Below the pieces are notes generated by a model. The model saw only the letters and a program-made list of their open reading frames with translations. It was not told the DNA's origin and did no database searches. From Chitinophagales bacterium (GTDB lineage Bacteria > Bacteroidota > Bacteroidia > Chitinophagales > JADIYW01), in NCBI GenBank assembly GCA_023957245.1, contig JAMLHJ010000005.1, forward strand, positions 126,309-190,308: a DNA stretch of 64,000 nt, written 5' to 3'. Position numbers and translations under genes: made by a program. Numbering within the stretch: the first letter of the stretch is position 1; each line of letters starts with the position of its first letter. Shown here piece by piece: positions 28,394 to 62,251 of the stretch.

Positions 28394-29728
28394 ATCAATC
28401 CTGTCCTAAATAAATTTTATCAGGAATAAATTTGACGTATTTATTGGTTTGTATCAAGGTTTTTCATTTTTTTCAAAATAGAACCCTTTGTAGTGGATTC
28501 GTTTTAGGAGGTGGTTCGATATTAAAGGGCTCATTTATCCATTTTATTAAATCTACTTTGACAAAAAGATTTAATCTTATAAATGCCACTAAATTTGAAA
28601 GATACCAATCATATTTTGCAATAGCTTTCAGATACTTTAAGATAAGTATTGTGATTAAAGCCGTCCATATTTGTATCATCACAGCATTATGTGAAGTTCC
28701 TATAAAAGATTTGATGTGTAAGAGTTGTTTTATCTCTCGAAAGAATATTTCCACCTGCCACCTCGCTTTATAAAGTTCACTTATCGTGTTTGCTGTCCAA
28801 GACATTTGATTGGTGATAAGTTCTATTTCCTGTTGATTCTCTTCATCCCAAATAGCTACTCTTCTCAATTGTTTTGGGTATTTGTTTTTGGCTTCATCTC
28901 TTTGTAATTCAATGATTTCATCTTTTAGTATATGTTGATGTCGGTTATCGGGTAGCTCCCTCTCTTTAATACTTACAAACTTGAGATTCTCTTTATGTCT
29001 AACCACAAAAAACACTTCATTGCTGTCCCAAACGTGTAGAAGTGAAAAATCATTGTAAAAGCGGTCTGCTACTATTACACATTGTTTGATGAGCGGTATG
29101 TCATACGCTCCTTTATTATCTGCTGTTTTCCCATCTGTGACATTTACATAAGCTGGAAGCAGACCATCATATTCTAAGAGTGTATGCATCTTCACTGCTC
29201 CTTTGGCAGTTTTATACTTTGCCCAATCAAATAGGCTTAAACACAATGAAATGACCGTTGAGTCTAGTAAGAATATTTTTGACTTTATCTTGAATTTTAT
29301 CCTTTTGCGAAAAGTCTGTTGTCCTAAAGTTTGAAGTAATACATAATAGTATTCTCTGAATAATTCCCAGTTACGCCGTTGATTTTGATAGCTCACAGTT
29401 GATTTAGATGGGGCAGTTTCTATCCCTAAATGGTTGAGGTTGCCTGTAGCTGAGCGAAGCCCATTACTTATATCTCTTACTGATTGACTTTTGGCAAATT
29501 GGCAGAAAAGCATAGAGATTAAATGCGTCCAACTATTAAACCCCTTATTATGTTTGTCGGTATTCTTTTCTTTGACTATTTTATTGAAAGATGAACGGTC
29601 AAGTTTGCTAATTATTTGAGAAAATAACGTTACATTTGTCATGGGAGGATGTGTTTTTGTTCAACCCCAAAATAATAATTTTGGGATAAATTCATCCTCC
29701 TTTTTAAAACGTTTAGGACGCTATTGAT
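28394..29728 (-). mobile_element. IS4-type insertion sequence
   Basis: The element is 1335 bp and carries one intact transposase. Imperfect terminal inverted repeats match at 14 of 17 positions: ATCAATCCTGTCCTAAA at the left end (28394-28410) and the complement of ATCAATAGCGTCCTAAA at the right end (29712-29728). The 5-bp sequence TATTT directly flanks both ends (28389-28393 and 29729-29733), a possible target duplication. In AT-rich DNA that could be chance, and IS4 elements usually make longer duplications. The right end lies about 8 bp from the 3' end of a group II intron. Confidence 0.75.
28473..29642 (-). CDS. IS4 family transposase
   Basis: A 389-residue DDE transposase. The N-terminal domain (residues 1-80, DUF4372-like: LFSQIISKLDRSSF) is typical of one IS4 branch. 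The catalytic residues are Asp127 in LLDST, Asp193 in VADRFYND and Glu298 in the YREK signature (Tyr291, Arg294, Glu298, Lys305). The frame is intact with no truncation, so it may be active. It is transcribed in the same direction as the esterase downstream and may contribute read-through. Confidence 0.92.
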   Translation of the reverse strand: MTNVTLFSQIISKLDRSSFNKIVKEKNTDKHNKGFNSWTHLISMLFCQFAKSQSVRDISNGLRSATGNLNHLGIETAPSKSTVSYQNQRRNWELFREYYYVLLQTLGQQTFRKRIKFKIKSKIFLLDSTVISLCLSLFDWAKYKTAKGAVKMHTLLEYDGLLPAYVNVTDGKTADNKGAYDIPLIKQCVIVADRFYNDFSLLHVWDSNEVFFVVRHKENLKFVSIKERELPDNRHQHILKDEIIELQRDEAKNKYPKQLRRVAIWDEENQQEIELITNQMSWTANTISELYKARWQVEIFFREIKQLLHIKSFIGTSHNAVMIQIWTALITILILKYLKAIAKYDWYLSNLVAFIRLNLFVKVDLIKWINEPFNIEPPPKTNPLQRVLF

Positions 29729-29789
29729 TATTTATAATCGAGTAGGAAGCAAAGGTAGGTAATTACTCCTAACTTTGCTGTCCTCTCAC

Positions 29790-29822
29790 ACCACCCAACG
29801 TACGTTTCTCGTATTAGGCGGT
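29790..29822 (-). ncRNA. Group II intron domain V
   Basis: On the minus strand, CCGCCTAA pairs with TTGGGTGG (with G-U wobbles). A 2-nt CG bulge follows, then TACG pairs with CGTA around an AGAAA loop. This is the standard architecture: basal stem, dinucleotide bulge on the 3' strand and capped distal stem. The G-U wobble position makes the catalytic triad CGC rather than the commoner AGC. Confidence 0.75.
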
Positions 29823-29833
29823 TTCTTCAATGT

Positions 29834-31231
29834 TTAACCGTAATTTGCAGTTAGACTGTATAATCCTTTTTCCTTGAACCATTTTAGATTCATCCCCTCG
29901 TGAGCAGCTGGGGTATTCGACAGTCTGTACCAACCTTTTGAACTTCCTGCTATTGTCCAGCTTCGATTCCAAGAAACTTTCAGCTTGGTCAAAAACCTAG
30001 CTATACCCAACGCTCGTTTGCATTGCTTTAAACGATAACACCTTAATCTACGCCGAAGCCATGCTTCTGTTTTGCTTAAACGACTTCTCATCTTGGCATT
30101 TTTGAAGTAGTTTAGCCAACCTCGAAGAACCAGATTTAGTTCATCTATCAATTGCTCAAAGCTAATGCCCCTGTTGCGTTTGGTAAGTTGTTTAAGTTTT
30201 GCTTTGAGGCGTTGTTCGCTCTTTGGGCTCAATCCTAAACTTCCATCCTTTAAAATGCTATGTCCAAGATAATTAAGTTGATAAGGTCGGATGACTTGGC
30301 TCTTTTCTCTGTTCACCTTCAATCGCATACGATTTTCAATAAACCCTGAAAGGCTTTCCATCACTCGCTTTGATGCTAATTCGCTTCCAACCATTATAAT
30401 AATGTCATCAGCATAGCGTACAAAACTATGTCCTCTTCGTTCTAATTCCTTGTCCAGCTCGTCTAAAACTATATTAGACAATAATGGAGATAAAGGACTG
30501 CCTTGTGGCGTTCCTTTTATCCGTTGATTAGTCATTCCTCCGCTGAGCATTCCTGCTCGAAGAAATTTACCAATCAGTTTAAGCACTCGATTATCGCCAA
30601 GTCGAGTACTTAATTGCCATAGCAAACGGTCATGGTTGACCTCGTCAAAGAATTTTGCCAAGTCTATATCAACTACCCAATTCTTACCTTGTGCTACATA
30701 GTTGCCCGCTTTGCGCAATGCTTGGTGGACATTGCAATTCGGACGAAATCCGTAGCTATGGTCAGAAAATGTAGGGTCATAGCGTTTCGACAAGACTTGA
30801 CTTATCGCTTGTTGAACCAAGCGGTCTTTGACAGTAGGAATACTGAGTTGGCGTTGACCACCGTTCGGCTTAGGTATCAATACCTCTTTAACTGCTGTAA
30901 CTTGATAGGTGCCTGTCATTAACCAATGTTGTAGCTCTACATAGTGATGGCAAAACCATACCTTGAGTTCTTCAACACTCATCCCGTCGATGCCTGCACT
31001 CCCTCTGTTACTGATTACTTTCCGCAATGCGGTTTTAAGATTCTTTAAGTCCGCTATCTCACTCATCAAATCTTGGGTTAAGGCTCGTTCTTCCCTGCAC
31101 CTTGACAACCACTCACACCGTACCAAACCGCTTCGAGTACTGAATACGTCTGTACCTTTCACCTTTTGGCTACTCTCCCATTCGTCAAAAAGACACATCT
31201 GAAAGTTTTCGTATTTCTCTGGTTTCAACAT
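29834..31231 (-). CDS. ltrA: Group II intron reverse transcriptase/maturase
   Basis: A 465-residue intron-encoded protein. The RT domain has VDIDLAKFFDEVNHD with catalytic Asp near 188-190, KGTPQGSPLSPLLSN, and the active site YADD at 273-276. The maturase (domain X) follows at about residues 350-430 with LRGWLNYFKNAK and AWLRRRLR. There is no C-terminal HNH endonuclease motif, so mobility would rely on an endonuclease-free route. The frame is intact. Confidence 0.93.
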   Translation of the reverse strand: MLKPEKYENFQMCLFDEWESSQKVKGTDVFSTRSGLVRCEWLSRCREERALTQDLMSEIADLKNLKTALRKVISNRGSAGIDGMSVEELKVWFCHHYVELQHWLMTGTYQVTAVKEVLIPKPNGGQRQLSIPTVKDRLVQQAISQVLSKRYDPTFSDHSYGFRPNCNVHQALRKAGNYVAQGKNWVVDIDLAKFFDEVNHDRLLWQLSTRLGDNRVLKLIGKFLRAGMLSGGMTNQRIKGTPQGSPLSPLLSNIVLDELDKELERRGHSFVRYADDIIIMVGSELASKRVMESLSGFIENRMRLKVNREKSQVIRPYQLNYLGHSILKDGSLGLSPKSEQRLKAKLKQLTKRNRGISFEQLIDELNLVLRGWLNYFKNAKMRSRLSKTEAWLRRRLRCYRLKQCKRALGIARFLTKLKVSWNRSWTIAGSSKGWYRLSNTPAAHEGMNLKWFKEKGLYSLTANYG

Positions 31232-32457: not shown

Positions 32458-34188
32458 CTAGAAATTAATTGGAACATCATAATAATGGTTAAACAGTCTA
32501 GTATTGAGTCCTACACTGAACAACTTGAGGTCTGCTGTCTTAGCTGCAGGGATAGAATTGTCCATTTGATATTTTCGCAATTGTAACTTAGCTTCCAACA
32601 TCATATTGAGTTTTGGATTAAGTAAATATCCTACTCTGAATTCGCTATTGACAACTTTATAGCTCAAATACCCTTGTCCTATCTTGGTTTTATCATCAAA
32701 ATAAGCATTGCTTGTAGATAATAAGATATCTGTTCCCACATTGCCATCAATAAAAAATCCGCCTATAGGACTATCAATTGACGATCTCCCCCCATTGATT
32801 TTTATTTCTGTAAAAAATCTTTTATAGCGATAATTTGCCAAGAAAACAAACTCATCAAATCCCGCTCCCATAGGGTGAGCAAGTGCTTGATTATAATGTG
32901 AATAATGCAGTACGCTATCAGTAGCATTCTGATAAGAATATGGTCTTACAATATTATACTCTGCTAGGAAATTCAAATTTTTCACCCCAAAAGCTTCATA
33001 GTATTTAGCACCCAATTGCATACCTGAACGATTATCAATGGAACGAATCTCTGTTGAAAACTGATTAATCATCACCTGACCATATAAAACAATATTTTTA
33101 GGCAGATTTATACTTGCATTGAAGCCGTAAATTTTATTGGCATCGAGATTATTCTGTAAGGCACGAATACCAATTATAGGGTTGAGAAAATTGGCATCAA
33201 ATTTCCTTTTGCCATCAGCGATAGAACTTCTCCAAATAATTCCCTCAAAAACACCGATAGACAACCAAGGTGTTGCTGCCAAACTCAAATAATTAAAAGT
33301 TGCTGTTTTTCTAGGAAAGCCTAATGTGAAATCTGTTTCATTTCTTACATTATTAATCAACTCTGAATAGATATTGACATACTTTATTTTCCAAAACTGG
33401 GTGGAAAGCTTGACATAAGGATATACAAAAGCATTGTCACTCAATAATAAAGAACGATATCCATCGCCAATAAAATGTTTGCCATTCCCTACTTCAAAAT
33501 TAAAGTATTTGCTTGGTGCATAGTTAAGATGACCTATTGCCTGTGAGAAGTCAAATCCATTCTCTTTAAAATTTCTTACTCTTCCATCACCTGGAGCAGT
33601 ACGAGTCTTTTGAACAAATCTTTTGATATAATCTGGGAAGGCTGCTTGGCTTTCAATAAAAGCAGTATAAATAGATAATTTTTCACCAATATTAGCACTG
33701 AACTCTATTCCCCTTTGATTGTATGAGTTTTTGTTTTCGTTATTCCCTTTCCCCAATTCAAAATGAAGAATAGGATTGGCTGAGATATAAAATTTTCTTT
33801 TAGTATATCCCTTATTTACTTTATTTACTTCGATGGTATCACCGTCAACAATCTGAGTTTCAGTAGATTTGACAAATCCTGACTCATCAAAAGCGACCCA
33901 ATCTCCATATCCTATTGAATTGATAGCTTTTTTAAATCCATTTTCTGGATTGAGTTTTTCCAAACCATAAGTAGTATCAGGATATACTTGTTGATATACT
34001 TCGGAAGCTATATAAGGTTTTACAGAGGTATGAAACGGCTTTTTCTTATCTGTATGATAGAGATATTTTTCATAATTCAAGCGATGCTCTCTATTGAGCG
34101 GAAGGCTGTTTTGCTGAGCAAATGATAAAGTTATATTGCAGAAAAATACTGCAAAAAAGATAGTGTTAATAAGCTTTTTCTTCTCCAC
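32458..34188 (-). CDS. RemB/Wzi-like outer membrane protein
   Basis: A 576-residue protein with a signal peptide (IFFAVFFCNITLSFAQQ) and a long beta-strand-rich body. The segment EVGNGKHFIGDGYRSLLLSD resembles the conserved GxNFIGDGYRSLLLS region that I associate with RemB and capsule-assembly Wzi-like proteins; the gliding function is an inference. Wzi-type barrels bind surface polysaccharide. The start is a GTG, 23 bp inside the end of the initiating sugar transferase gene, so translation is probably coupled. Confidence 0.65.
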   Translation of the reverse strand: MEKKKLINTIFFAVFFCNITLSFAQQNSLPLNREHRLNYEKYLYHTDKKKPFHTSVKPYIASEVYQQVYPDTTYGLEKLNPENGFKKAINSIGYGDWVAFDESGFVKSTETQIVDGDTIEVNKVNKGYTKRKFYISANPILHFELGKGNNENKNSYNQRGIEFSANIGEKLSIYTAFIESQAAFPDYIKRFVQKTRTAPGDGRVRNFKENGFDFSQAIGHLNYAPSKYFNFEVGNGKHFIGDGYRSLLLSDNAFVYPYVKLSTQFWKIKYVNIYSELINNVRNETDFTLGFPRKTATFNYLSLAATPWLSIGVFEGIIWRSSIADGKRKFDANFLNPIIGIRALQNNLDANKIYGFNASINLPKNIVLYGQVMINQFSTEIRSIDNRSGMQLGAKYYEAFGVKNLNFLAEYNIVRPYSYQNATDSVLHYSHYNQALAHPMGAGFDEFVFLANYRYKRFFTEIKINGGRSSIDSPIGGFFIDGNVGTDILLSTSNAYFDDKTKIGQGYLSYKVVNSEFRVGYLLNPKLNMMLEAKLQLRKYQMDNSIPAAKTADLKLFSVGLNTRLFNHYYDVPINF

Positions 34189-35581
34189 GAATCATATTAA
34201 ATATAGTCATAAAAACAATACGAATATCTAGCAAAAAGCTCCAATTTTCAATATACCAAATATCCGCCTTCACTCTTTCCTCCATTTCATGTGGATTTTT
34301 GGTTTCTCCTCTGAACCCATTTACCTGCGCCCAACCAGTAATTCCTGGCTTGATAAAATGGCGCACCATAAATTTATCAATTATTTTTGAGTATTCTTCA
34401 GTATGTTTCAACATGTGTGGTCTTGGACCTATAATTGACATGTGTCCTAATAGTACATTTATAAACTGTGGAATCTCATCTAGGTTGGATTTTCTTAAAA
34501 ATGCACCTAATGGAGTAATACGAGTATCGCCCTTTGTTGCTTGTATAGTATTGGCATCTCCATTGACATACATTGTCCTAAATTTGTACACCTTAAAAGA
34601 TTTATTTTTAATACCTGTCCTTTCTTGAACAAAGAACACTGGCCCTTTTGAGCTCAATTTGATTAAAATAGCAATCAATGGAATCAACCACCAAAGAATT
34701 GTCGCAAAAACTGCAATAGTAAATACAAAATCAAAACCTCTTTTTGCTGCCCTATTGATAAATAATTCCAATGGCTCCTGACGAATCATCATGACAGGAT
34801 AAGTGTCAAAATAATCTATCTCCAATTTATGAAACTGATTGGTCAAAAAGTGAGAGAAATCTGGAACAATTTTCAATCGAATTAAATATTTATCAGAAAA
34901 ATTGATGAGGTCAATAATCTTTTCTTCTTGTTTATATGGCAATGCACAGAAAATCTCATCTATCTGATGCTCTCTCGCAAAACGCTTTGCATCACTGACG
35001 TTGCCTTTAATCTGTTGTTGTAATTGAGGGAAACGCTCTGGTTCATCATCAAAAAATCCAAGTACAGCAATTCCAAATTCCATTCTACTTTCTAGCATTC
35101 TTTTAAATTCTTGTGCTGTAGGTCCTGCTCCGATAATTATTGCTTTTTTGATATTGTGACCTCTAGATCTAAAATAACGCACCAATTTAAAAAAGCTAAA
35201 TCGCCAAATTGTTGTCAAAACTAGAGATATACCATAAGTGTATAGCAATACTTCTCTAGAAAGTTTGAAAGTATCGTTAAGGTCTTTGAAAACAACGATA
35301 TATGAAAAAGACAAGATGATTTGAAAGAAAAACAACTTGACCAACATGGCAGCAATTGTGGTCACTTGTGTATTTCTATACATATTAAAAGTGCCACTCA
35401 ATTTCCCTGAAATTAAATAGATTAAATTCAGATAGATAAATAGTTGCTGATATTTAGCATCTAACAAATAATACAAACTCCCTAGCGAGAAATATAACGC
35501 ACACAAGTAGCTTATCAATAAGATAAATAAATCGCCAACCGAGTGTAGAAATATATATATGTTTGTGAATCTACGACTCAT
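34166..35581 (-). CDS. Polyprenyl-phosphate hexose-1-phosphate transferase (WcaJ/WbaP type)
   Basis: A 471-residue initiating enzyme that transfers a sugar-1-phosphate to undecaprenyl phosphate. About four N-terminal membrane helices are followed by a CoA-binding-like domain (KAIIIGAGPTAQEF). Then come a further helix and the C-terminal catalytic PglC-like domain with GPVFFVQERTG, KVYKFRTMY, LRKSNLDEIPQ, GPRPHM and KPGITGWAQVNG. It is followed by the RemB/Wzi-like gene with a 23-bp overlap, which links priming of a polysaccharide to an outer membrane partner. Confidence 0.9.
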   Translation of the reverse strand: MSRRFTNIYIFLHSVGDLFILLISYLCALYFSLGSLYYLLDAKYQQLFIYLNLIYLISGKLSGTFNMYRNTQVTTIAAMLVKLFFFQIILSFSYIVVFKDLNDTFKLSREVLLYTYGISLVLTTIWRFSFFKLVRYFRSRGHNIKKAIIIGAGPTAQEFKRMLESRMEFGIAVLGFFDDEPERFPQLQQQIKGNVSDAKRFAREHQIDEIFCALPYKQEEKIIDLINFSDKYLIRLKIVPDFSHFLTNQFHKLEIDYFDTYPVMMIRQEPLELFINRAAKRGFDFVFTIAVFATILWWLIPLIAILIKLSSKGPVFFVQERTGIKNKSFKVYKFRTMYVNGDANTIQATKGDTRITPLGAFLRKSNLDEIPQFINVLLGHMSIIGPRPHMLKHTEEYSKIIDKFMVRHFIKPGITGWAQVNGFRGETKNPHEMEERVKADIWYIENWSFLLDIRIVFMTIFNMIRGEEKAY

Positions 35582-37985: not shown

Positions 37986-39128
37986 CTATTTCAATAGACC
38001 TTTTTCTCTCAATTCATCTAAAGATGCCTCATATTTGTCCGAAAGGACGGTTTGTCCATCTACCCATTCCGTAAACCTTTTGATGCCTTCTTTAAAAGAT
38101 ACTTGTGCTTTAAACCCAAGTAGTTTTTCAGATTTTTTCATATCAGCAAAATTATGACGAATATCCCCTTTCCTAAATTGACCAGAAATATGAATCGGCA
38201 CTTCCACACCATAGTTTTTCATCAATTCTTTGGCTACATCTGTAACTGAAGTAGGAATACCAGTCCCTACATTAAAAGATTGATAATTGGCCTCCTCTCT
38301 TTCTATCCCTCTTATAGTAGCATCGACAACATCGTCTATATATACAAAATCTCTACTCTCTGTTCCATCTTCAAAAATATTGATATCCTTATTCCCTTTA
38401 ATTCTTGTCGAGAATATTGACAAAATTCCAGTATAAGGATTATTCAAAGATTGTCCTGGACCATAAACATTCTGATATCTAAAAGCCACACACGGAACTC
38501 TAAGTGCTTGGCAGGTAATCATGATAGATTGCTCTTGATAATATTTTGTCAAGCCATAAATAGAGTTAGGTTGGATTCTAGACCACTCATCTGTAGGCTC
38601 TGGACTAACATTCACCCCTGTTATTGGGCATTTGACTTCAAAATCTCCATTGACCATATCCTCTTCTTCTCTTCCCAATGGATATACAGAAGATTGAAGC
38701 TCAGGTGAAAAATATTTGCCTTCTCCATAAATTGCTCTTGAAGAAGCGACAATTACCTTTTCGACAGTATGCTTCGTATTAGTCAGAATATCTAAAAAAA
38801 TAGATGTGCCAGATACATTGACATTGGAATATTTTTCTATTTGGTACATAGACTGACCAGTACCCGTCTCTGCTGCGAGATGCACAACGATTTGCTGACC
38901 GACTAGTGCTTTTTCCCAATCTGCTTTATTTTGCACATCTCCTAAAATAAAGTTGACTTGATCTTTAATCTCTTGATAGAGTACAGATGTTTCTGGATTG
39001 CCATGAATCTGCGGAGAAAGATTATCTAATACTGTAATTTCATGCCCCTTTTTTATCAATTGCTTGGCTAATCTAGTGCCAATAAATCCTGCTCCTCCAG
39101 TAATAAGTATTTTTTTTGATACGCTCAT
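37986..39128 (-). CDS. NAD-dependent epimerase/dehydratase (dTDP-rhamnose 4-epimerase-like)
   Basis: A 380-residue extended SDR. The NAD-binding ITGGAGFIGTRLAKQ is at the start. The active site has VASSRAIYGEG and, further on, SIYGLTKYYQEQ with the Tyr and Lys pair. The substrate region has YQNVYGPGQSLNNPYTGI and DGTESRDFVYIDDV. That combination and the long insertion (about residues 135-180) resemble dTDP-L-rhamnose 4-epimerases, but the precise substrate is inferred. First-order neighbours are GT2 and a sulfotransferase, so it likely supplies a nucleotide sugar for that cluster. Confidence 0.75.
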   Translation of the reverse strand: MSVSKKILITGGAGFIGTRLAKQLIKKGHEITVLDNLSPQIHGNPETSVLYQEIKDQVNFILGDVQNKADWEKALVGQQIVVHLAAETGTGQSMYQIEKYSNVNVSGTSIFLDILTNTKHTVEKVIVASSRAIYGEGKYFSPELQSSVYPLGREEEDMVNGDFEVKCPITGVNVSPEPTDEWSRIQPNSIYGLTKYYQEQSIMITCQALRVPCVAFRYQNVYGPGQSLNNPYTGILSIFSTRIKGNKDINIFEDGTESRDFVYIDDVVDATIRGIEREEANYQSFNVGTGIPTSVTDVAKELMKNYGVEVPIHISGQFRKGDIRHNFADMKKSEKLLGFKAQVSFKEGIKRFTEWVDGQTVLSDKYEASLDELREKGLLK

Positions 39129-39129
39129 C

Positions 39130-40068
39130 TTATGCTCGTAATATTAATTTTAAAGAATTGTATAGTGTGTTTTTAAAGAATTTGTTTTTGATAATCAACC
39201 ATTTTCTTTTTACTCCTTTGGTAAATTTTAATCGAATAAAATCTTCCAACATTTTATTTTGTTCTTGGGTTAATTGTGCTCCATAAATCTCATGAATAGC
39301 TTGAGCTTGCAAGACTTGTTTATCTAAGTATTTTTGAAAATTCTGATTATTGATTTTATTGGCAAAATCATTAGAAATCTCTTTCTGATGTGCACTTCCA
39401 GCACGACTAGCATTGTTATCATGTATTCTATGATATACCAAGACATCATCAAGATAACATAAACAACCTGACAGAGAAGCTACCAAAGCCAGCCAATGGT
39501 CATGTAGCAATGCTCTATCATCAATCGGTACAGCCGTTTCCAATAGTTTTCTATTGATAATAGAAGCACAACCATAAGGCACATTTTGCATTAATAAGCG
39601 ATGTGTTTTAATCGCTCTCGTGTCCAACCTATCTTTCTCAATTAAAGATGGACTTACCACATTCATGGCTTGGTCACAAATAATCAAATCGCTGAAAACC
39701 ATCACACCTTTATTTGAATGATTATTCTCAATCTTTTGAATAAATGCTATTTGCTTGCTTAGTTTTTCTGGTAGCCATTTGTCATCTTGGTCTGAAAAAC
39801 AAATATATGGTGCTGAAGAAAGCTGCATCAACCGATTGAAATTCTGAGAAGCTCCTAAATTCTTATCTTCATCTTCTATTATCTCTATTTTCTGAGGATA
39901 CAAGCCTTTCCATTTAGCCAATATATTTAAGGTTCCATCAGAAGAACCATCGTCTCTCACCAAAACTCTAAAATGATGATAGTCCTGATTGAAAATAGAT
40001 TCTAACTGTTCGTCTAGGTACTTTTCACCATTATAGGTAGCTAATAATATATCAACTATTACCGACAT
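39130..40068 (-). CDS. Family 2 glycosyltransferase
   Basis: A 312-residue GT-A enzyme with the motifs ILLATYNGEKYLDEQL, VRDDGSSDGT and ICFSDQDDKWLP, where DQDD is the metal-binding site. The C-terminal part (HRIHDNNASR) is typical of rhamnosyl- and related transferases. It lies 9 bp after the sulfotransferase and 1 bp before the epimerase gene. The order suggests one operon for a modified surface glycan. Confidence 0.88.
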   Translation of the reverse strand: MSVIVDILLATYNGEKYLDEQLESIFNQDYHHFRVLVRDDGSSDGTLNILAKWKGLYPQKIEIIEDEDKNLGASQNFNRLMQLSSAPYICFSDQDDKWLPEKLSKQIAFIQKIENNHSNKGVMVFSDLIICDQAMNVVSPSLIEKDRLDTRAIKTHRLLMQNVPYGCASIINRKLLETAVPIDDRALLHDHWLALVASLSGCLCYLDDVLVYHRIHDNNASRAGSAHQKEISNDFANKINNQNFQKYLDKQVLQAQAIHEIYGAQLTQEQNKMLEDFIRLKFTKGVKRKWLIIKNKFFKNTLYNSLKLILRA

Positions 40069-40077
40069 AAATCTGAA

Positions 40078-40929
40078 TTAAATGATATTATCATAGTTCA
40101 ATTGCTTCATCAAAGGTTTATCCTTGACTTTTAAATATACATCTATTGCTTCAGGATTCTTAGTAAATGCAAAGCTTCTATCACTTTTAACAGATTTCAC
40201 CTGTTCATTAATTTGCTGCTCAGTAAAATTTAACCCACAAAAAGTTGCAATGGAATGAAGATGTAAAGAGGGTTCTGCTAAAAAATCTTCATACCTCACA
40301 TGTTTCATATTTGGGAAGAACTGCTCTTGCTGCATACATTTAGTAACATACTCTTCCCATAGATTATATCCTTCTTCTAGAGAATACAATCTAAAGTTGG
40401 AATGATAATTTTTGCTTATCAAAAGCTTCCTCTTCAATGCTTTTTTCCAATTGAGCTGATATTTGTCTTTCATTTTCAAATCTCTCTCAATAAAGCTACT
40501 AATAGAGTCTATAGGATTGCGATAAATATGAAGAACAACCGCATTGGGAAAAATTTCTTTCCATAAATCAATTGTAAATGAATTTTTAGGGTCTTTCCAT
40601 CCCCAAGGGATATCCAAATCTTTTAGACTTTTATATGCATTGTTTTTATCGCCCAAGAATTTTTTCTTCTGACTACTTTGAACAAAATAATTCAAATCGT
40701 CTATTAATATTTGTCTTGTTCTTGGATTGAGGTACTGAAAGTTATGTGGTAAATCTGCCCTACTGCATGCAATTTCAAAAATCCAATTATTGATATCCCA
40801 AAAGAAAAGAGCTTCATTATTGATTTCCTTTTTATCTCCAACAAATAATCCTAGATTTTCCAACATTTTAGTAATCATGGTCGTTCCAGAACGATGCATT
40901 CCTATTATAATAACTGGTGGAATAGGCAT
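40078..40929 (-). CDS. Sulfotransferase family protein
   Basis: A 283-residue PAPS-dependent sulfotransferase-like protein. The 5'-phosphosulfate-binding loop is IIGMHRSGTTMIT (residues 9-20), and a 3'-phosphate-binding motif IYRNPIDSISSFIER lies downstream. No signal peptide or membrane segment is visible, so it would act in the cytoplasm on a sugar or lipid-linked glycan. The start is the ATG at 40929; a TTG three codons upstream is less likely. It is followed by GT2 and epimerase genes. Confidence 0.8.
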   Translation of the reverse strand: MPIPPVIIIGMHRSGTTMITKMLENLGLFVGDKKEINNEALFFWDINNWIFEIACSRADLPHNFQYLNPRTRQILIDDLNYFVQSSQKKKFLGDKNNAYKSLKDLDIPWGWKDPKNSFTIDLWKEIFPNAVVLHIYRNPIDSISSFIERDLKMKDKYQLNWKKALKRKLLISKNYHSNFRLYSLEEGYNLWEEYVTKCMQQEQFFPNMKHVRYEDFLAEPSLHLHSIATFCGLNFTEQQINEQVKSVKSDRSFAFTKNPEAIDVYLKVKDKPLMKQLNYDNII

Positions 40930-41079
40930 TAATATCAATTGATTTGCAACAAAAATATTAAATATTTACCACATAGTTGAAAATAACATGAAATAATAAG
41001 ATGATACAGACGGCTACATGAAGTGCTTAAAAGGTTTTTTCATGATAATGAAGATTTTAAATCTCCACCATACAATTCA

Positions 41080-55506: not shown

Positions 55507-56700
55507 TTAATTTTCAATAGCTTGTATCACTTTGTCAAACACAGACTTCCAAGTGTAAAGTTCTTCTGCCAATTGTCTAGAATGGAAAGAAATTTTCTCC
55601 CATAATTCTTTATTTTCCAATAGTTGCAAAGTATCATCAGCAAATTGCTGAGCTTCATCTGTTACCATCATTGAATTTGCATTCACCACTTTCAATCCTT
55701 CAGCTCCTATTGTAGTTGAAACGGTAGGAATTCCACGATATAAAGCATTCATCACTTTGACTTTTATACCACTCCCAAATCTCAAAGGAGAAATAAATAC
55801 TTTACATTTTGTGTAGTAATCATCCAAATTCTGAACAAAACCAGTAAGAACAACATTTCTACTAGCATTTGCAGCTTGAATAATTCTGACATCTGGATTC
55901 TTCCCTACAACGAAAAACATTGTTTCAGGCTGTTGGGCTAATATTTTAGGCCAGATATCTCGTATAAAATATAATACTGCATCAATATTGGCTTCCCAAG
56001 TCAATGTACCAATAAATAATACGGCATTTTCTGCATTTCCCCAATTCAAAGGAGGCAAACTCAGCATTTCCTCATCTCCTAAATGATATGTTTCATAAAA
56101 TTTGGAGGCATTAGCTCCTATTTTGACCAATTCCTCTTTATCATTTGGAGCTGCTAGTATCGTATCTGCACGCTGGCAAATTTTACTTTCATAATTTTTA
56201 ATCCAAAAAGCTTGATTTTTTAAAGCTAGTTTTTTGACAAAGGATTTCTCCAATTGAGCAAATCTATCCCAAATTAAGTACTCACAATTATGTTGGTGTA
56301 AAATCACTTTCCCTTTAAAATTCTTTGGTACATATTGAAACATTTCATAGTGGTCAACAAAAATTGCATCTACTTGCTGAGCCCAACTTTGAATCTGTTG
56401 AGAAAATTTTGGAGAGCGATTGCGATACAGATTGAGTGGTTGGAAAAGAAGGTTAGATTTTATCAGATTCATTCCTGTTCTAGGGATATCCAACTGTTCA
56501 AAATAATAGTCGTCTAATTTTACTAAAGAAAGAAATGTCTGGACGTCTTGTTCCTCATCGTTCTTCAAAAAAGTGGCCAAACGCAATTGATATTTCTGGC
56601 TTAAGAACTCCACAAGTCGCCAACTTTTTATCACGCCGCCACTGATTGGAGGATATGGCAATTGTGTACTTATAAATAATATCTTTTGAATTCCACTCAT
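55507..56700 (-). CDS. GT4-type glycosyltransferase
   Basis: About 397 residues, GT-B fold. The N-terminal FISTQLPYPPISGGVIKSW is followed by AVLFIGTLTWEANIDAVLYF. The donor half has ISPLRFGSGIKVKVMNALYRGIPTVS and GAEGLKV. This arrangement resembles the glycosyltransferase 4 family used in exopolysaccharide synthesis. The start is the ATG at 56700 (MSGIQK), 2 bp past the stop of the sulfotransferase. It is the last gene of the minus-strand polysaccharide locus. Confidence 0.85.
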   Translation of the reverse strand: MSGIQKILFISTQLPYPPISGGVIKSWRLVEFLSQKYQLRLATFLKNDEEQDVQTFLSLVKLDDYYFEQLDIPRTGMNLIKSNLLFQPLNLYRNRSPKFSQQIQSWAQQVDAIFVDHYEMFQYVPKNFKGKVILHQHNCEYLIWDRFAQLEKSFVKKLALKNQAFWIKNYESKICQRADTILAAPNDKEELVKIGANASKFYETYHLGDEEMLSLPPLNWGNAENAVLFIGTLTWEANIDAVLYFIRDIWPKILAQQPETMFFVVGKNPDVRIIQAANASRNVVLTGFVQNLDDYYTKCKVFISPLRFGSGIKVKVMNALYRGIPTVSTTIGAEGLKVVNANSMMVTDEAQQFADDTLQLLENKELWEKISFHSRQLAEELYTWKSVFDKVIQAIEN

Positions 56701-56702
56701 GG

Positions 56703-57659
56703 TTATAGCCAATTCTTTAAATCTCTTTGAATCAATTTCTCAAGTAATAAAATATCTGAACGATAATATTCTATCAGATATTGACGTTCTTCATCCGTCA
56801 TTTGGGGAATATCTTCTTTCCCTGATTTATACATCCATCTTTTAAATGGTGTTCTCCAACTATGTGGCAAATTGTTTTTTGCCCAGCTGATAAGCCCATA
56901 TTGATTTAGCCAATAATTGATTTTTTTTAATTTAGGCACTCCTCCTTCATTAGCCTTTTCTTCAGTATTGATTGGCACATTTGGATTTACTCCTAAAAAC
57001 TCAAACATTTCTTTAACGATTTTCGTTGGATTCTCTTTATAATCATCAAAAAGAAAGATTTTGATTTGTTCTTTGGGGAAGATGTCATAATATCTTTTAA
57101 GCTGCTCATAATACTTGCCTATCATTAAGTACTGATGATTAGCTCCCCAGCCTTTGTGCTTGGCTTTGTCATCATTGATTATCTCATTGAGAAAATCTTG
57201 TTCTAAGATTTTACCTTGCTTGAGATTCATGATATATTGAGAAAAAGCCCTTTCTGCTGGATTTCTAAGCATCGCCATAATTTTTGCATTGGGATAGGCT
57301 TCAAAAATCTTTTGAGGAGCATTTTCATACAACATATAAGAAAGGCTCATTTCCCCAATTGCCTTTTGGTTCTTGACATTTGAAAACAGATGTAGATAGT
57401 CTTTCTCTTTTGTAATATGTGCAATATGAACTGGATAAGACATCCCTTCCTTAAAATATCTTTCAAGGTCTATCGATATATCATGTCGGTAATCTCTTGC
57501 AAACAATGATTCGTCAATATCCAATCGAGAAAAATAATTGACTTCCTTTATCGGACTTAGATAAATCTCTGGATGTTGATCTAAATATCTATGCAAAGAA
57601 GTCGTACCTCCTTTAACAGTGCCGATTAGAAAAAAATTGGGATGATGAACTTGTTCCAT
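56703..57659 (-). CDS. Sulfotransferase domain protein
   Basis: A 318-residue protein with the 5'-phosphosulfate loop FLIGTVKGGTTSLHRYL (residues 10-25) and the 3'-phosphate motif MLRNPAERAFSQYIM. LSPIKEVNYFSR is typical of heparan-type N- and O-sulfotransferases. It would use PAPS to sulfate a glycan or lipid. No signal peptide. It starts directly at the stop of the glycosidase gene, so the genes are coupled. Confidence 0.85.
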   Translation of the reverse strand: MEQVHHPNFFLIGTVKGGTTSLHRYLDQHPEIYLSPIKEVNYFSRLDIDESLFARDYRHDISIDLERYFKEGMSYPVHIAHITKEKDYLHLFSNVKNQKAIGEMSLSYMLYENAPQKIFEAYPNAKIMAMLRNPAERAFSQYIMNLKQGKILEQDFLNEIINDDKAKHKGWGANHQYLMIGKYYEQLKRYYDIFPKEQIKIFLFDDYKENPTKIVKEMFEFLGVNPNVPINTEEKANEGGVPKLKKINYWLNQYGLISWAKNNLPHSWRTPFKRWMYKSGKEDIPQMTDEERQYLIEYYRSDILLLEKLIQRDLKNWL

Positions 57660-59312
57660 TTATAACGCAATTTCAAGATATCCAACACTATATCCTGGTA
57701 CAGAAAAATCTTTAGCGTCTTTTTTGTTAGGAATATATTGAATCATATCCACCATATTAGGAAGTGTTTTATAAAAACCATTCAGTCCAGCAAGCGACCA
57801 TGGATATTTTCCTTGAATACCTTCTATTTTCTTTATTTCTTTTGCTCCTTTCACTTCAAAAGCTATTTTTTCAGCAGATTTATTGATAAAATAGAGGAAG
57901 ATAGAAGATTTGTCTTTGCTAACAAATGTTTTAAAAACAACATTTTTGACAGTGATATTTTGAGGATAAGAAATCTTTTCATCCATTCTTAGAGCCTCAA
58001 GATTGAGAAGCTCTCTGAAATATAAAAAAGGGAAATAAGTAGAATTGTATGCAATATTTCCTTCTCTTTTCAAATAATTGACTTTTTGTTGCTGTGTATA
58101 TGTAAATAAAGGTGCCGCATAACCTCCAGAACCATAATTGTGAAAAAATGCATATTCTAATTCATTGTTCTTAGCACACAAATCTATTAGCCCCATTAAT
58201 GATTCGCCTACAAACTCCGCATGTCTAATAGTGTTTGCAACAGTACTAGCTGCATCAACATTCCATTCTGTCACCCACATTTTTTTATTGCCATAAAATG
58301 ACTTGTAGTGCTCTAAGACAATTTGATGATAATGGTAGTATTCTGGCGCCAATGTTAAATCGGTACAACCGAATACTGCTTTCAAATCATCGCCTCCCTT
58401 CTTTTCACACGTAGAAACATTTGAATAAAGATGAGGAATATAAAAGTCATAAAAAATTTCTTTACCTAATGTAGCATTCCAAAGGTTTTGAAATTTCTGA
58501 TAACTTCCTTGAGGATTGGCTTCAGTAGGGTCAGCAGCCACCACCCCTAGTTTCATTTGAGGATATTTTTTCCTGATTGCGCTCGCATATTCTTTGGCTT
58601 TTTGAATATAACTTTCTACTGTAGGAAAATATTTTCTATACTGAGTCAAATAGAACTCATTGCCCAATTCAACTCCTATTACTTGGATATTCTGAGATTT
58701 AAAATAATCTAATGCCCACAAAGTTTCATCGACCGTTCCAGTCATTAGGTTAGCAACATAAACTACTTGGCTATTCGCCATTTTACAGACAGTTGTGAAG
58801 TGATAAATTGCATTTTTGTCAAACAAAGCCATTGCTCTAGTGATTTCAGGAAATCCACCTTTCACATCTTCTTGTCGAAAGCCGTAGCCTTTACCATCAG
58901 GGTGATAGTAATTGGCGAGTGTTCCTCCAGGGAAACGCAAAGCTTTAGGTCTTAATATCTGTGTTATTGTTTTAACTGCAGGTTCGGTTTCAATAGGAGC
59001 AGTAAATAAAAATCCTGTATTAAATGAAATTAAATTAGGATTGGGGACATACTGCTTGGAATAATCTGGCTGAATAACCACTTTATTCGACAGATTGGGA
59101 ATAACAATTTGCTGAGAAGAATTATTTGTATTCTCGACAGGTTTAGATGAAGGAATATTGGGTTGAGTTGGAGTTGGTTTACTTCCTGTAGAAGGAGATG
59201 AAACCGGAAACTGTGTACAAGATATCCACCAAAAACTAAGTAGCCATAGAAGAATCACCGAGTAATGCTTCTTGGTCTTTCCTGAATTTTTTAACTTTTT
59301 CAATTTTATCAT
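57660..59312 (-). CDS. Lipid-anchored clan GH-A glycoside hydrolase-like protein
   Basis: A 550-residue lipoprotein. A signal peptide (VILLWLLSFWWISC, Cys32) is followed by a Ser/Thr/Pro-rich linker to about residue 80. The catalytic domain has LRFPGGTLANYYHP at about 125, the acid/base candidate Glu219 in GVELGNEF, and the nucleophile candidate Glu349 in WVTEWN. That layout fits the GH51/GH39/GH79 type. It sits in a polysaccharide locus and may trim or remodel the product. The ATG overlaps the ligase-like gene by 77 bp. Confidence 0.75.
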   Translation of the reverse strand: MIKLKKLKNSGKTKKHYSVILLWLLSFWWISCTQFPVSSPSTGSKPTPTQPNIPSSKPVENTNNSSQQIVIPNLSNKVVIQPDYSKQYVPNPNLISFNTGFLFTAPIETEPAVKTITQILRPKALRFPGGTLANYYHPDGKGYGFRQEDVKGGFPEITRAMALFDKNAIYHFTTVCKMANSQVVYVANLMTGTVDETLWALDYFKSQNIQVIGVELGNEFYLTQYRKYFPTVESYIQKAKEYASAIRKKYPQMKLGVVAADPTEANPQGSYQKFQNLWNATLGKEIFYDFYIPHLYSNVSTCEKKGGDDLKAVFGCTDLTLAPEYYHYHQIVLEHYKSFYGNKKMWVTEWNVDAASTVANTIRHAEFVGESLMGLIDLCAKNNELEYAFFHNYGSGGYAAPLFTYTQQQKVNYLKREGNIAYNSTYFPFLYFRELLNLEALRMDEKISYPQNITVKNVVFKTFVSKDKSSIFLYFINKSAEKIAFEVKGAKEIKKIEGIQGKYPWSLAGLNGFYKTLPNMVDMIQYIPNKKDAKDFSVPGYSVGYLEIAL

Positions 59313-60582
59313 CTTTTTGTTTATAATATTCCAATACCATAAAGATACTCAACATAGAAACTGGAGCAAATGCAAATCCTCCTGTAAAAACAGAGGTAAT
59401 GAGCAAGTAAAAAACACTCGTTATAATCGTATTGAAAATTAGATCATACTTAAAGTTTTTAATCTTATGGATAACAAAAGCTGGATATAAGAAAAAAAGA
59501 AATAATAAAATTGTCCCAATAATTCCAAATACAAACAAAATTCCGAAAATACCTATATCCGTAAAATACAAATATCCAAAACGAAGCCACATTTCATCTC
59601 TTGGAATAAACCCAATGCCAAAAAACCAATGCCCTGGATATTTATCAAAATGACTCAATACTGTTCCGATTTCTACCCATCGCATATCTGCCGAACTCTC
59701 CCCCGTTTCGATTCCAAATATAGCATCCACAAACACCATAAACATATTGACAACAACAGTCAATAGCTCTGGTTGTATCCAGTAAACTATCAATAGCATG
59801 ATAGCAGTGATTAGAATGATATCTATCATTCTGAATATAATACTTTTGAATGGAATAAATAAAATAGTATGCATTGCTAAAGATCCAATAATAGCAATAA
59901 ACTGAATACGCCCTTTGTCTAAAAATAAGATATAAGCGATTAACACAAAACTCAATAACAAGCTAAATCTATTCTTATTGAGTGTATAATCTAAAAAGTA
60001 AAATACAATGCCATAGACAATAAAGTTAGGAGGGAAATTGAATACATATCCTCCTTTTGAAGGGTTAAAACCCACCATGTCTGTTGTCTCCTTATAAATA
60101 GCAGGGTTGATTGTAAACATGAGAATGACATATAAAACCAAATTGACCCAGCAAATTATTAGCATAGAAAAATTATACTGATACATTGAAATAATCTCAG
60201 TCTTCAGTAGATAATATAATAAAAAGATACTGATAATAGGCAGATAGGTCTTCCCCGAAATCAAGATACTTTTTAATAATGGTTGATCAAATACAGCATT
60301 GGCTGTCAATGCAGTATAGAATGTGAACAAAGACATTAAAACAACCAAACCATCTATCGTAGAAAATCGCTTTTTTATAAAAACTTTGTCAAAAACATAT
60401 AACAATCCAAAAGGTATTAATATCCCAACAATGACATAAGTCATGATGTTATACACTGGAGCCAATGGCGTCACAGACAAAACCGGGCTACCATAAAACA
60501 ACAAATAAGTGGACATTAGAAAAACCTTCAGGTAAAATAAAGGGCTGTCTTTCTTGAATAAGGTAATATCTATATTTGCCAT
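59236..60582 (-). CDS. O-antigen ligase/polymerase-like membrane protein
   Basis: A 448-residue protein with about ten membrane helices and a large soluble loop at about residues 290-330 (ETGESSADMRWVEIGTVLSHF then FGIGFIPRDEMW). The SADMRW and GIGF motifs are typical of the Wzy/WaaL type: G-S-R-W like sequence in the loop. It would polymerise or attach the polysaccharide in the periplasm. The last residues overlap the glycosidase gene. The gap from the upstream gene is 4 bp. Confidence 0.8.
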   Translation of the reverse strand: MANIDITLFKKDSPLFYLKVFLMSTYLLFYGSPVLSVTPLAPVYNIMTYVIVGILIPFGLLYVFDKVFIKKRFSTIDGLVVLMSLFTFYTALTANAVFDQPLLKSILISGKTYLPIISIFLLYYLLKTEIISMYQYNFSMLIICWVNLVLYVILMFTINPAIYKETTDMVGFNPSKGGYVFNFPPNFIVYGIVFYFLDYTLNKNRFSLLLSFVLIAYILFLDKGRIQFIAIIGSLAMHTILFIPFKSIIFRMIDIILITAIMLLIVYWIQPELLTVVVNMFMVFVDAIFGIETGESSADMRWVEIGTVLSHFDKYPGHWFFGIGFIPRDEMWLRFGYLYFTDIGIFGILFVFGIIGTILLFLFFLYPAFVIHKIKNFKYDLIFNTIITSVFYLLITSVFTGGFAFAPVSMLSIFMVLEYYKQKDDKIEKVKKFRKDQEALLGDSSMAT

Positions 60583-60586
60583 CTAA

Positions 60587-62251
60587 TTATTTTCCTAAAA
60601 GATTTTTACGAATATACAAATATGGTACATGATTGCCTGTAATTACTTTCTCAAAACCATATTGTTCTGGTCGAGCTTTAAAATCATACCAAGTAGAATC
60701 ACTTTTTAGCGTTGGATATTTGGTCAAAGAAGGAGTTACATAAATAATATCTACGTGTTCTCTTTCAATATAAGCAGTCCATGTTGTGTCTTTAGCAAAT
60801 CCACGTATCCATATATAATTATTAGGCAAAAACAAGTTCATTCCTCCTTCATTCTCTAAGAGTCGAATTGGAGTAGTAAAGTTGTATGCTCTTAATTTTT
60901 TTACTGTATTCAGATTGGCTTGAGAAGTTTCTTTTCGCCACATATCAAAATGATGATAGCTTTTTGTTGAAGGCATTAGCACCCAGATGATACAAACGAT
61001 AATAAAAGAAAGAATTACTGATTTTTTATCAATAGCAGCAACATCTTTAGGTTTTGAAAATACCAAAATGCTGATAATAAAAGATAATAGAAAAAAATGA
61101 AAAAGCATATAATGCATTCTCGGGTATATCACAATACTAGATATCAAGGTCGGCCCCACCATGACTGTCAAAAGAATAAGTACTAAAATATTTCTTTTAA
61201 ACCCATTTAGAATATTTTCCAAATACTTGTCTTGAGAAACAAACAAAAGCATCAAAACTCCACCTATAGCTAGAATCATTAATCTCCAAACCAATGAAAG
61301 ATGAATCAGTTGTTGTGGGAGCATTGCATCACTAAATAAAAGCAATGCATTGGAGAAATAATTTTGAATATTGGTAAGGAAATGTAATTGGAAAAGCGTA
61401 GGATTAATTTGATATGCTTCTTTGATTGAAGATGCATTATGAAAGAGATCTTGATAATAGGTCATCCAAGTGATCCAAAAATCTTGATCGATATGTTTCC
61501 ATTGAAAATAATTGAACATAAAATGCTGAGCAAAAGCCAAGGCACTTCTATCTCCGTTAAAATTAAATAATGGATTACCCATTTTTAGCTGTATCAACAC
61601 TCCTATTCCCAATAATACAAGAGAAGAAATGATAGCATTTTTTGACCTAAAAGATTTGACACATAAAGCCAACACCCATAATGCCAGTATTACCAAATAA
61701 GATAGATAAAACTCTGGTCTTGCATAAGATATATTTAATGCAAATAAAGAAATGACAGCCACCTTAATCAATGGTGCATTAATATATTTCACCAATATCA
61801 ACCCTATTAAAAATATGGAAATACAATAGTGAGAAATCTTAGGCCAAACAGGCAGATTTATATCTGTGAATAAAAATAAAAGACAAACACCTAAACTTGT
61901 CCAAAAGCGAACATTGGATAATACTAAAAAAATGAAAAATACTGCTGCTGGCAATATTGTCATCCATCTATAATTGAGAAAATATAACTCAATGGTATCC
62001 TTTTCAAATAGTGACAAAAATTTGTACCAAATAGCATAAGATGGACCCCAAGAATGATTGAATTTTCCTGGCATCAGCATGCCTGACTTCATATAATTGG
62101 CTTCATCCCAAAATAAAAGATCTAAGGATTGACTCAAATCTTTTGTAAAATACCATCCAGTAAGAATAATTAAAACCACTCCTATTGCTAAAGCAGGATA
62201 GGAAACATGAGCTCGCTTATCTGAGAAAATACCTTGAATGACGTCCTTCAA
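60587..62251 (-). CDS. Polytopic membrane protein, GT-C-like (paralogue of the gene at 62358)
   Basis: A 554-residue protein with about 11 membrane helices. The first loop has LDLLFWDEANYMKSGMLMPG, an acidic loop typical of GT-C glycosyltransferases that use polyprenyl-linked sugars. Conserved with its divergent neighbour are KISHYCI, YARPE and a SALAFAQHFMFNYFQW segment. It is probably a sugar transferase or flippase partner in the locus. The only good start is a TTG at 62251. First gene of the minus-strand locus. Confidence 0.65.
   Translation of the reverse strand: MKDVIQGIFSDKRAHVSYPALAIGVVLIILTGWYFTKDLSQSLDLLFWDEANYMKSGMLMPGKFNHSWGPSYAIWYKFLSLFEKDTIELYFLNYRWMTILPAAVFFIFLVLSNVRFWTSLGVCLLFLFTDINLPVWPKISHYCISIFLIGLILVKYINAPLIKVAVISLFALNISYARPEFYLSYLVILALWVLALCVKSFRSKNAIISSLVLLGIGVLIQLKMGNPLFNFNGDRSALAFAQHFMFNYFQWKHIDQDFWITWMTYYQDLFHNASSIKEAYQINPTLFQLHFLTNIQNYFSNALLLFSDAMLPQQLIHLSLVWRLMILAIGGVLMLLFVSQDKYLENILNGFKRNILVLILLTVMVGPTLISSIVIYPRMHYMLFHFFLLSFIISILVFSKPKDVAAIDKKSVILSFIIVCIIWVLMPSTKSYHHFDMWRKETSQANLNTVKKLRAYNFTTPIRLLENEGGMNLFLPNNYIWIRGFAKDTTWTAYIEREHVDIIYVTPSLTKYPTLKSDSTWYDFKARPEQYGFEKVITGNHVPYLYIRKNLLGK

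Follow-up and report, generated by a model that had tools for sequence, protein, structure and literature searches.

The window analysed here is a 64,000-nucleotide stretch from a Chitinophagales genome (3.09 Mb in 23 contigs), whose nearest relatives are uncultured Chitinophagales metagenome-assembled genomes (MAGs). At 55507-62251 it holds a block of five tightly packed genes, all on the minus strand, that joins two predicted polysaccharide-assembly membrane proteins to a lipid-anchored glycosidase, a sulfotransferase and a glycosyltransferase. In the presumed direction of transcription, these are:

60587-62251, minus strand: GTC, a polytopic, GT-C-like protein with a DExxY-type motif in its first loop and a C-terminal soluble domain
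59236-60582, minus strand: LIG, a membrane protein resembling WaaL/Wzy-type O-antigen ligases or polymerases, based on its AlphaFold2 (AF2) fold
57660-59312, minus strand: GH, a predicted lipoprotein of glycosidase clan GH-A, with candidate acid/base E219 and nucleophile E349, based on fold and alignment
56703-57659, minus strand: ST1, a sulfotransferase (PF00685/PF13469) dependent on 3'-phosphoadenosine 5'-phosphosulfate (PAPS), based on Pfam, profile matches in the Protein Data Bank (PDB) and motifs
55507-56712, minus strand: GT4 glycosyltransferase, based on Pfam, with a best NCBIfam match (TIGR03087) below that model's cut-off

The five open reading frames and their spacing agree with an earlier note on this DNA. 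GTC and LIG are separated by 4 bp and GH abuts ST1 (0 bp). LIG and GH overlap by 77 bp if the glycosidase gene starts at its first ATG, an overlap that a GTG at 59258 would reduce, and ST1 and GT4 overlap by 10 bp if GT4 starts at a TTG (the ATG at 56700 would give a gap of 2 bp). The gene order is kept in all three searched genomes of the window's genus and in G001, a genome of another genus, and the arrangement is thus not due to chance. Pfam upholds the GT4 and sulfotransferase assignments of that note. We found no significant curated-family match for GTC, LIG or GH (the top Pfam line for GH, AAA_26, falls below its cut-off), and their identities are therefore taken from folds and neighbourhood.

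The AF2 model of GH, derived from a 22-sequence alignment, has a mean predicted local distance difference test score (pLDDT) of 86.2. In VIA-align comparisons it matches GH51 arabinofuranosidases with a Z of 30.1 (root-mean-square deviation, rmsd, 3.3 over 403 residues), a GH79 beta-glucuronidase with 29.3 and a bacterial heparanase with 29.2, with GH39 lower at 22.6. Over residues 74-550, GH thus resembles the GH51/GH79 enzymes (arabinofuranosidases; glucuronidases and heparanases) in fold, at Z 28-30, but differs from them in sequence, with an identity of about 15%. The two catalytic glutamates (E219, in the motif LGNE, and E349, in TEWN) do not vary among the 22 homologues; nor do the residues of an RFPGGT motif reminiscent of GH51. 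Further, the alignment profile matches GH51 chains in the PDB (E 5.8e-9), with the GNE acid/base motif lining up. As the two folds tie, the Pfam GH51 profile matches 0 of the 22 homologues and Pfam GH79 yields a single weak GH79n match (E 0.035), we do not claim membership of either family; on its modelled fold, GH is an enzyme of clan GH-A whose family is unassigned. The sequences also agree with the lipoprotein character proposed earlier: most homologues begin with a signal-anchor or lipobox-like segment ending in Cys, and Cys32 is nearly invariant. A gammaproteobacterial homologue (L068) has, by eye, an apparently ordinary signal peptide in place of this anchor, suggesting that the periplasm is the compartment these proteins share. 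A second, shorter paralogue (368 aa) that lacks the C-terminal beta domain lies away from the locus (L036:9024-10130, contig C9) and is kept in 3/3 genomes of the genus (also L049, L071, L072).

ST1 scores 62.5 and 58.0 bits against PF00685 and PF13469 (E 5.3e-17 and 2.2e-15), and a second sulfotransferase of the window, ST2, 79.4 bits against PF13469, where the cut-offs are 22-27. When profiles were compared with the PDB, the sulfotransferase 3rnl aligned along the length of ST1 (E 1.7e-50), with heparan sulfate N-/3-O-sulfotransferases giving a weaker match (1nst, E 7.1e-12); ST2 gave no PDB sequence match. The GxxK/RxGTT 5'-phosphosulfate-binding loop (5'-PSB) and the Arg/Ser of the 3'-phosphate-binding site (3'-PB) are invariant in 14 aligned locus-linked sulfotransferases. 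A non-sulfating P-loop family, the alternative that the earlier note had set against its own assignment, is ruled out for ST1 by Pfam, by its relationship to 3rnl and the heparan sulfate N-sulfotransferases (NDST) and by the PAPS-site motifs. Both proteins thus belong to the PAPS-dependent sulfotransferase family, from which transfer of sulfate to a glycan is predicted. The PAPS synthesis genes for which a search had been proposed are present in the source genome as consecutive cysC-cysD-cysN, and an APS kinase was found in 8/8 further genomes checked. The window also holds the following features:

40078-40938, minus strand: ST2, a sulfotransferase (PF13469, E 6e-22) with PAPS-site motifs
39130-40068, minus strand: GT2 glycosyltransferase of the ST2 operon, based on Pfam
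37986-39128, minus strand: NAD-dependent sugar epimerase/dehydratase of the ST2 operon, based on Pfam
34166-35581, minus strand: polyprenyl-phosphate sugar phosphotransferase, the probable initiating enzyme of the repeat unit, based on sequence, with homologues in the GH/sulfotransferase loci L061, L063 and L048
32458-34188, minus strand: outer-membrane beta-barrel-like protein of putative function, a companion of the initiating transferase with barrel profile scores of 1089 bits in L061 and 569 bits in L048
62358-63998, plus strand: GTC2, a divergently transcribed GTC paralogue that runs past the window end

The presence of a second sulfotransferase with a GT2 and an epimerase was correctly anticipated, the operon spanning 37986-40938. 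The order ST2-GT2-epimerase is kept in six of seven relative loci of the family, the seventh having ST2 alone.

The LIG model (pLDDT 78.2) matches WaaL (7tpg) with a Z of 16.6 (rmsd 5.4, 349 residues; VIA-align), the runner-up folds being FtsW/RodA at Z 11-14 (FtsW 13.8); because values near 13 may carry little meaning for helical membrane proteins, the lead of WaaL is modest. The Wzy_C profile PF04932 matches one of 13 LIG homologues (1.9e-5), and the window's LIG is itself without a match. LIG is thus probably a member of the WaaL/Wzy superfamily by its modelled fold, either a polymerase or a ligase, as the earlier note had put it. For GTC, the alignment shows D49 and Y53 to be invariant and E50 near-invariant, forming the DExxY-type motif; together with the GT-C-like topology, this suggests a probable periplasmic polyprenyl-phosphate-sugar transferase.

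Across 13 genomes of the family, the GTC-LIG-GH trio is present in the searched stretches of most (some contigs in this survey are cut, and G010 is without a full-length GH). ST1 and GT4 follow the trio solely in the window's genus (3/3) and in G001, which holds two GH loci, one without the trio. In a third genus, of which three genomes were read in detail, the trio lies beside an MBOAT/SGNH O-acyltransferase-like pair, a GT4 and a Wzx, with an Acyltransferase-3-like gene also nearby in two of the three; Wzx and GT4 are profile matches, and the other names were given by eye. G001 combines sulfotransferase and acyltransferase decoration genes with Wzx, the initiating transferase and the barrel inside about 16 kb. 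Thus, the trio is the conserved part, while the decoration genes vary. Since most of the family has the trio without a nearby sulfotransferase, it is the polysaccharide machinery to which the hydrolase is linked, and not sulfation as such. LIG and GH stay together in two genera of the family and in L060, L061 and L063. In the third genus, the polysaccharide region of the trio adjoins polyketide/fatty-acid-synthase-like megasynthase genes (L141, L142, L143).

The association recurs in other lineages. Two other Bacteroidota MAGs (L061, L063) have the order Wzx-ST-ST-LIG-GH-ST-ST, where ST denotes a sulfotransferase, plus an initiating transferase. Within the gammaproteobacterial order to which the Lamellibrachia symbiont belongs, GH is found in 11/195 genomes; a Wzx match lies within 10 kb in 11/11 of these and a sulfotransferase in 10/11. 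Six of the 11 share the order Wzc-Wzx-ST-CysQ-like-GH-Wzy-GT4-ST-ST-ST, in which the phosphatase is a PF00459 protein; read as CysQ-type, it would remove the by-product 3'-phosphoadenosine 5'-phosphate (PAP). Overall, Wzx, a Wzy-like gene and an initiating transferase are linked in L061, L063 and G001, and Wzx, a Wzy-like gene and Wzc in the gammaproteobacterial loci. At a threshold of 1e-15, GH was detected in one of 395 sampled Bacteroidota genomes, namely the source genome itself; hence, this is a rare family, not a component of exopolysaccharide (EPS) systems at large. The GH tree has long branches and requires four changes of the sulfotransferase-pairing label, at least two of them forced by supported branches. 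A single origin of the pairing is therefore not upheld, and the tree does not separate shared ancestry with loss from repeated gain. Among the homologues, GH is split into two overlapping frames in one Lamellibrachia symbiont MAG (L069:6764-8348), by a frameshift or an assembly error, and in L064-L067 (Flavobacteriales/Bacteroidetes MAGs) it lies inside a protein of about 1000 residues with no sulfotransferase or Wzx nearby.

We regard the block as the probable periplasmic end of a Wzx/Wzy-type pathway for a sulfated EPS (or capsule) with a periplasmic, PslG-like editing hydrolase. Under this model, assembly of the lipid-linked repeat unit by the initiating transferase (34166-35581), GT2 and GT4 would take place in the cytoplasm, where ST1 and ST2 would sulfate the unit with PAPS supplied by CysDN and CysC. 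PAPS is cytosolic, and sulfation is therefore placed ahead of flipping by Wzx, with GTC, LIG and GH acting afterwards. A polyprenyl-phosphate donor would then supply the sugar that GTC adds, and LIG would polymerise or ligate the repeat unit in the periplasm. By analogy with the action of PslG on Psl, the lipid-anchored GH, presumably facing the periplasm, would cut nascent or stalled chains and most likely edits chain length, frees chains or clears the periplasm. The earlier proposal of a sulfated glycan remodelled by its own hydrolase gains from the PAPS genes, the genuine ST1, the position of GH, in unrelated lineages too, amid genes for Wzx, Wzy-like proteins and sulfotransferases, and the lack of sulfatases reported below; the sulfate on the glycan and its cleavage by GH stand as predictions from sequence.

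Several observations weigh against this model. GTC, which had been called GT-C-like, has that topology and motif but no Pfam match and no PDB sequence match, leaving the role without profile support. The Wzx genes of the source genome all lie on contigs other than that of the window, as do its Poly_export (Wza-type) genes. No sulfotransferase lies within 10 kb of the trio in the third genus. The background for the gammaproteobacterial counts, 3/60 Wzx genes with a sulfotransferase within 10 kb, comes from the window's family (13 genomes) and not from gammaproteobacterial genomes, and is a rough yardstick. The absence of Wzx, Wzc or Wza adjoining the window's own locus, together with WaaL, a ligase, being the closest fold to LIG, would also suit a different arrangement, with LIG as a ligase for O-antigen or protein glycans, placing a short sulfated glycan on lipopolysaccharide or glycoproteins, and GH trimming acceptors or lipid-linked donors. 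We consider this unlikely, as a long polymer would fit the company of GH elsewhere: Wzx in L061 and L063, and Wzx with Wzc and a distinct Wzy-like gene in the loci of the Gammaproteobacteria.

Lipid-anchored glycoside hydrolases of Bacteroidota are often catabolic and the fold of GH resembles GH51/GH79 degraders; GH could thus degrade foreign glycans, such as those of algae or animals, its placement in the locus being incidental. However, no PF00884 sulfatase was found in the window's genus or in G001, its closest relative with the sulfotransferase, and the source genome has one SusD only, on another contig. The organism is therefore not equipped to strip sulfated glycans, though able to make them. 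GH is also co-directional and overlapping with LIG, and the pair persists across genera. On the missing sulfatases and the lack of a linked SusD we reject the interpretation of the block as a catabolic locus; GH probably does not serve feeding on sulfated glycans, and a role on foreign glycans more generally seems to us highly improbable. The acyltransferase-like genes flanking the trio in the third genus, in place of sulfotransferases, would fit a glycan that is O-acylated and not sulfated, with ST1 and ST2 acting on something else (a lipid or small molecule). To this we attach scarcely any credence: ST1 overlaps GT4 and abuts GH in the source genome, follows GH in all genus members and matches carbohydrate sulfotransferases, and sulfotransferases recur beside GH in another phylum.

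In its editing hydrolase, the sulfated-EPS model is closest to the Psl system. PslG is a GH39 enzyme, from which GH differs in family (Z 22.6 for GH39 versus 30.1 for GH51), and we know of no sulfation of Psl. As here, the Psl locus of Pseudomonas aeruginosa encodes its own inner-membrane/periplasmic hydrolase with two catalytic Glu (PMC9075953). PslG is found chiefly at the inner membrane, and its hydrolytic activity is important for making Psl; exopolysaccharide loci often carry a hydrolase, with PslG, AlgL and PelA as examples (PMC9075953). The earlier view that remodelling by an own hydrolase is uncommon in described capsule loci was thus overstated. The xss cluster for synechan in Synechocystis 6803 is likewise of Wzx/Wzy type with two sulfotransferases, and the available text reports measured EPS sulfate; it differs in being cyanobacterial, and that text mentions no hydrolase gene for the cluster (PMC8205485). 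The nearest described combination is wps-1 of Actinoplanes missouriensis, with Wzx/Wzy, two sulfotransferases and a glycoside hydrolase, though the latter is a GH26 and the host Gram-positive; sulfation is predicted there too (PMC13390465). The Vibrio sp. KMM 8419 capsule cluster shares sulfotransferases and PAPS synthesis genes, its structure having been solved by NMR, but is of the ABC-transporter type, with an AB-hydrolase the sole hydrolase found in the available part of its description (PMC11641403).

In the open-access literature we found no description of this GH family or its sulfotransferase pairing in Bacteroidota or tubeworm symbionts, and no paper that links sulfotransferase-bearing EPS loci to tubeworm symbionts. 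EPS loci with a hydrolase are themselves already known; the repeated pairing of GH with sulfotransferases is little described. The available texts describe sulfated polysaccharides among bacteria as nearly exclusive to cyanobacteria (PMC8205485, PMC13390465), and similar blocks recur in groups, namely other Bacteroidota and tubeworm-symbiont-type Gammaproteobacteria, with hardly any known examples. In granular sludge, sulfated glycosaminoglycan (GAG)-like polymers have been measured, with producers and sulfotransferases unknown (PMC10483923, PMC7356697). Some isolate names of the Chitinophagales MAGs with these loci point to sludge, and the loci in these MAGs and in tubeworm-symbiont genomes provide candidate genes for such producers and sulfotransferases, with GH a candidate tool to cut sulfated GAG-like polymers. 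More speculatively, the GH family might be dedicated to self-made polymers of this kind, as a heparanase analogue acting on the cell's own matrix that Chitinophagales, other Bacteroidota and tubeworm-symbiont-type Gammaproteobacteria share through deep divergence or transfer; we offer this as a tentative and rather doubtful possibility.

Elsewhere in the window, a transposase-like gene lies beside a group II intron-type reverse transcriptase/maturase at 28473-31231 (minus strand), just past the initiating-transferase block. About 12 kb past the window end (L034:11836-19857) is a 2673-residue protein with repeats like those of right-handed beta-helix proteins and with a C-terminus like those of type IX secretion system (T9SS) substrates.

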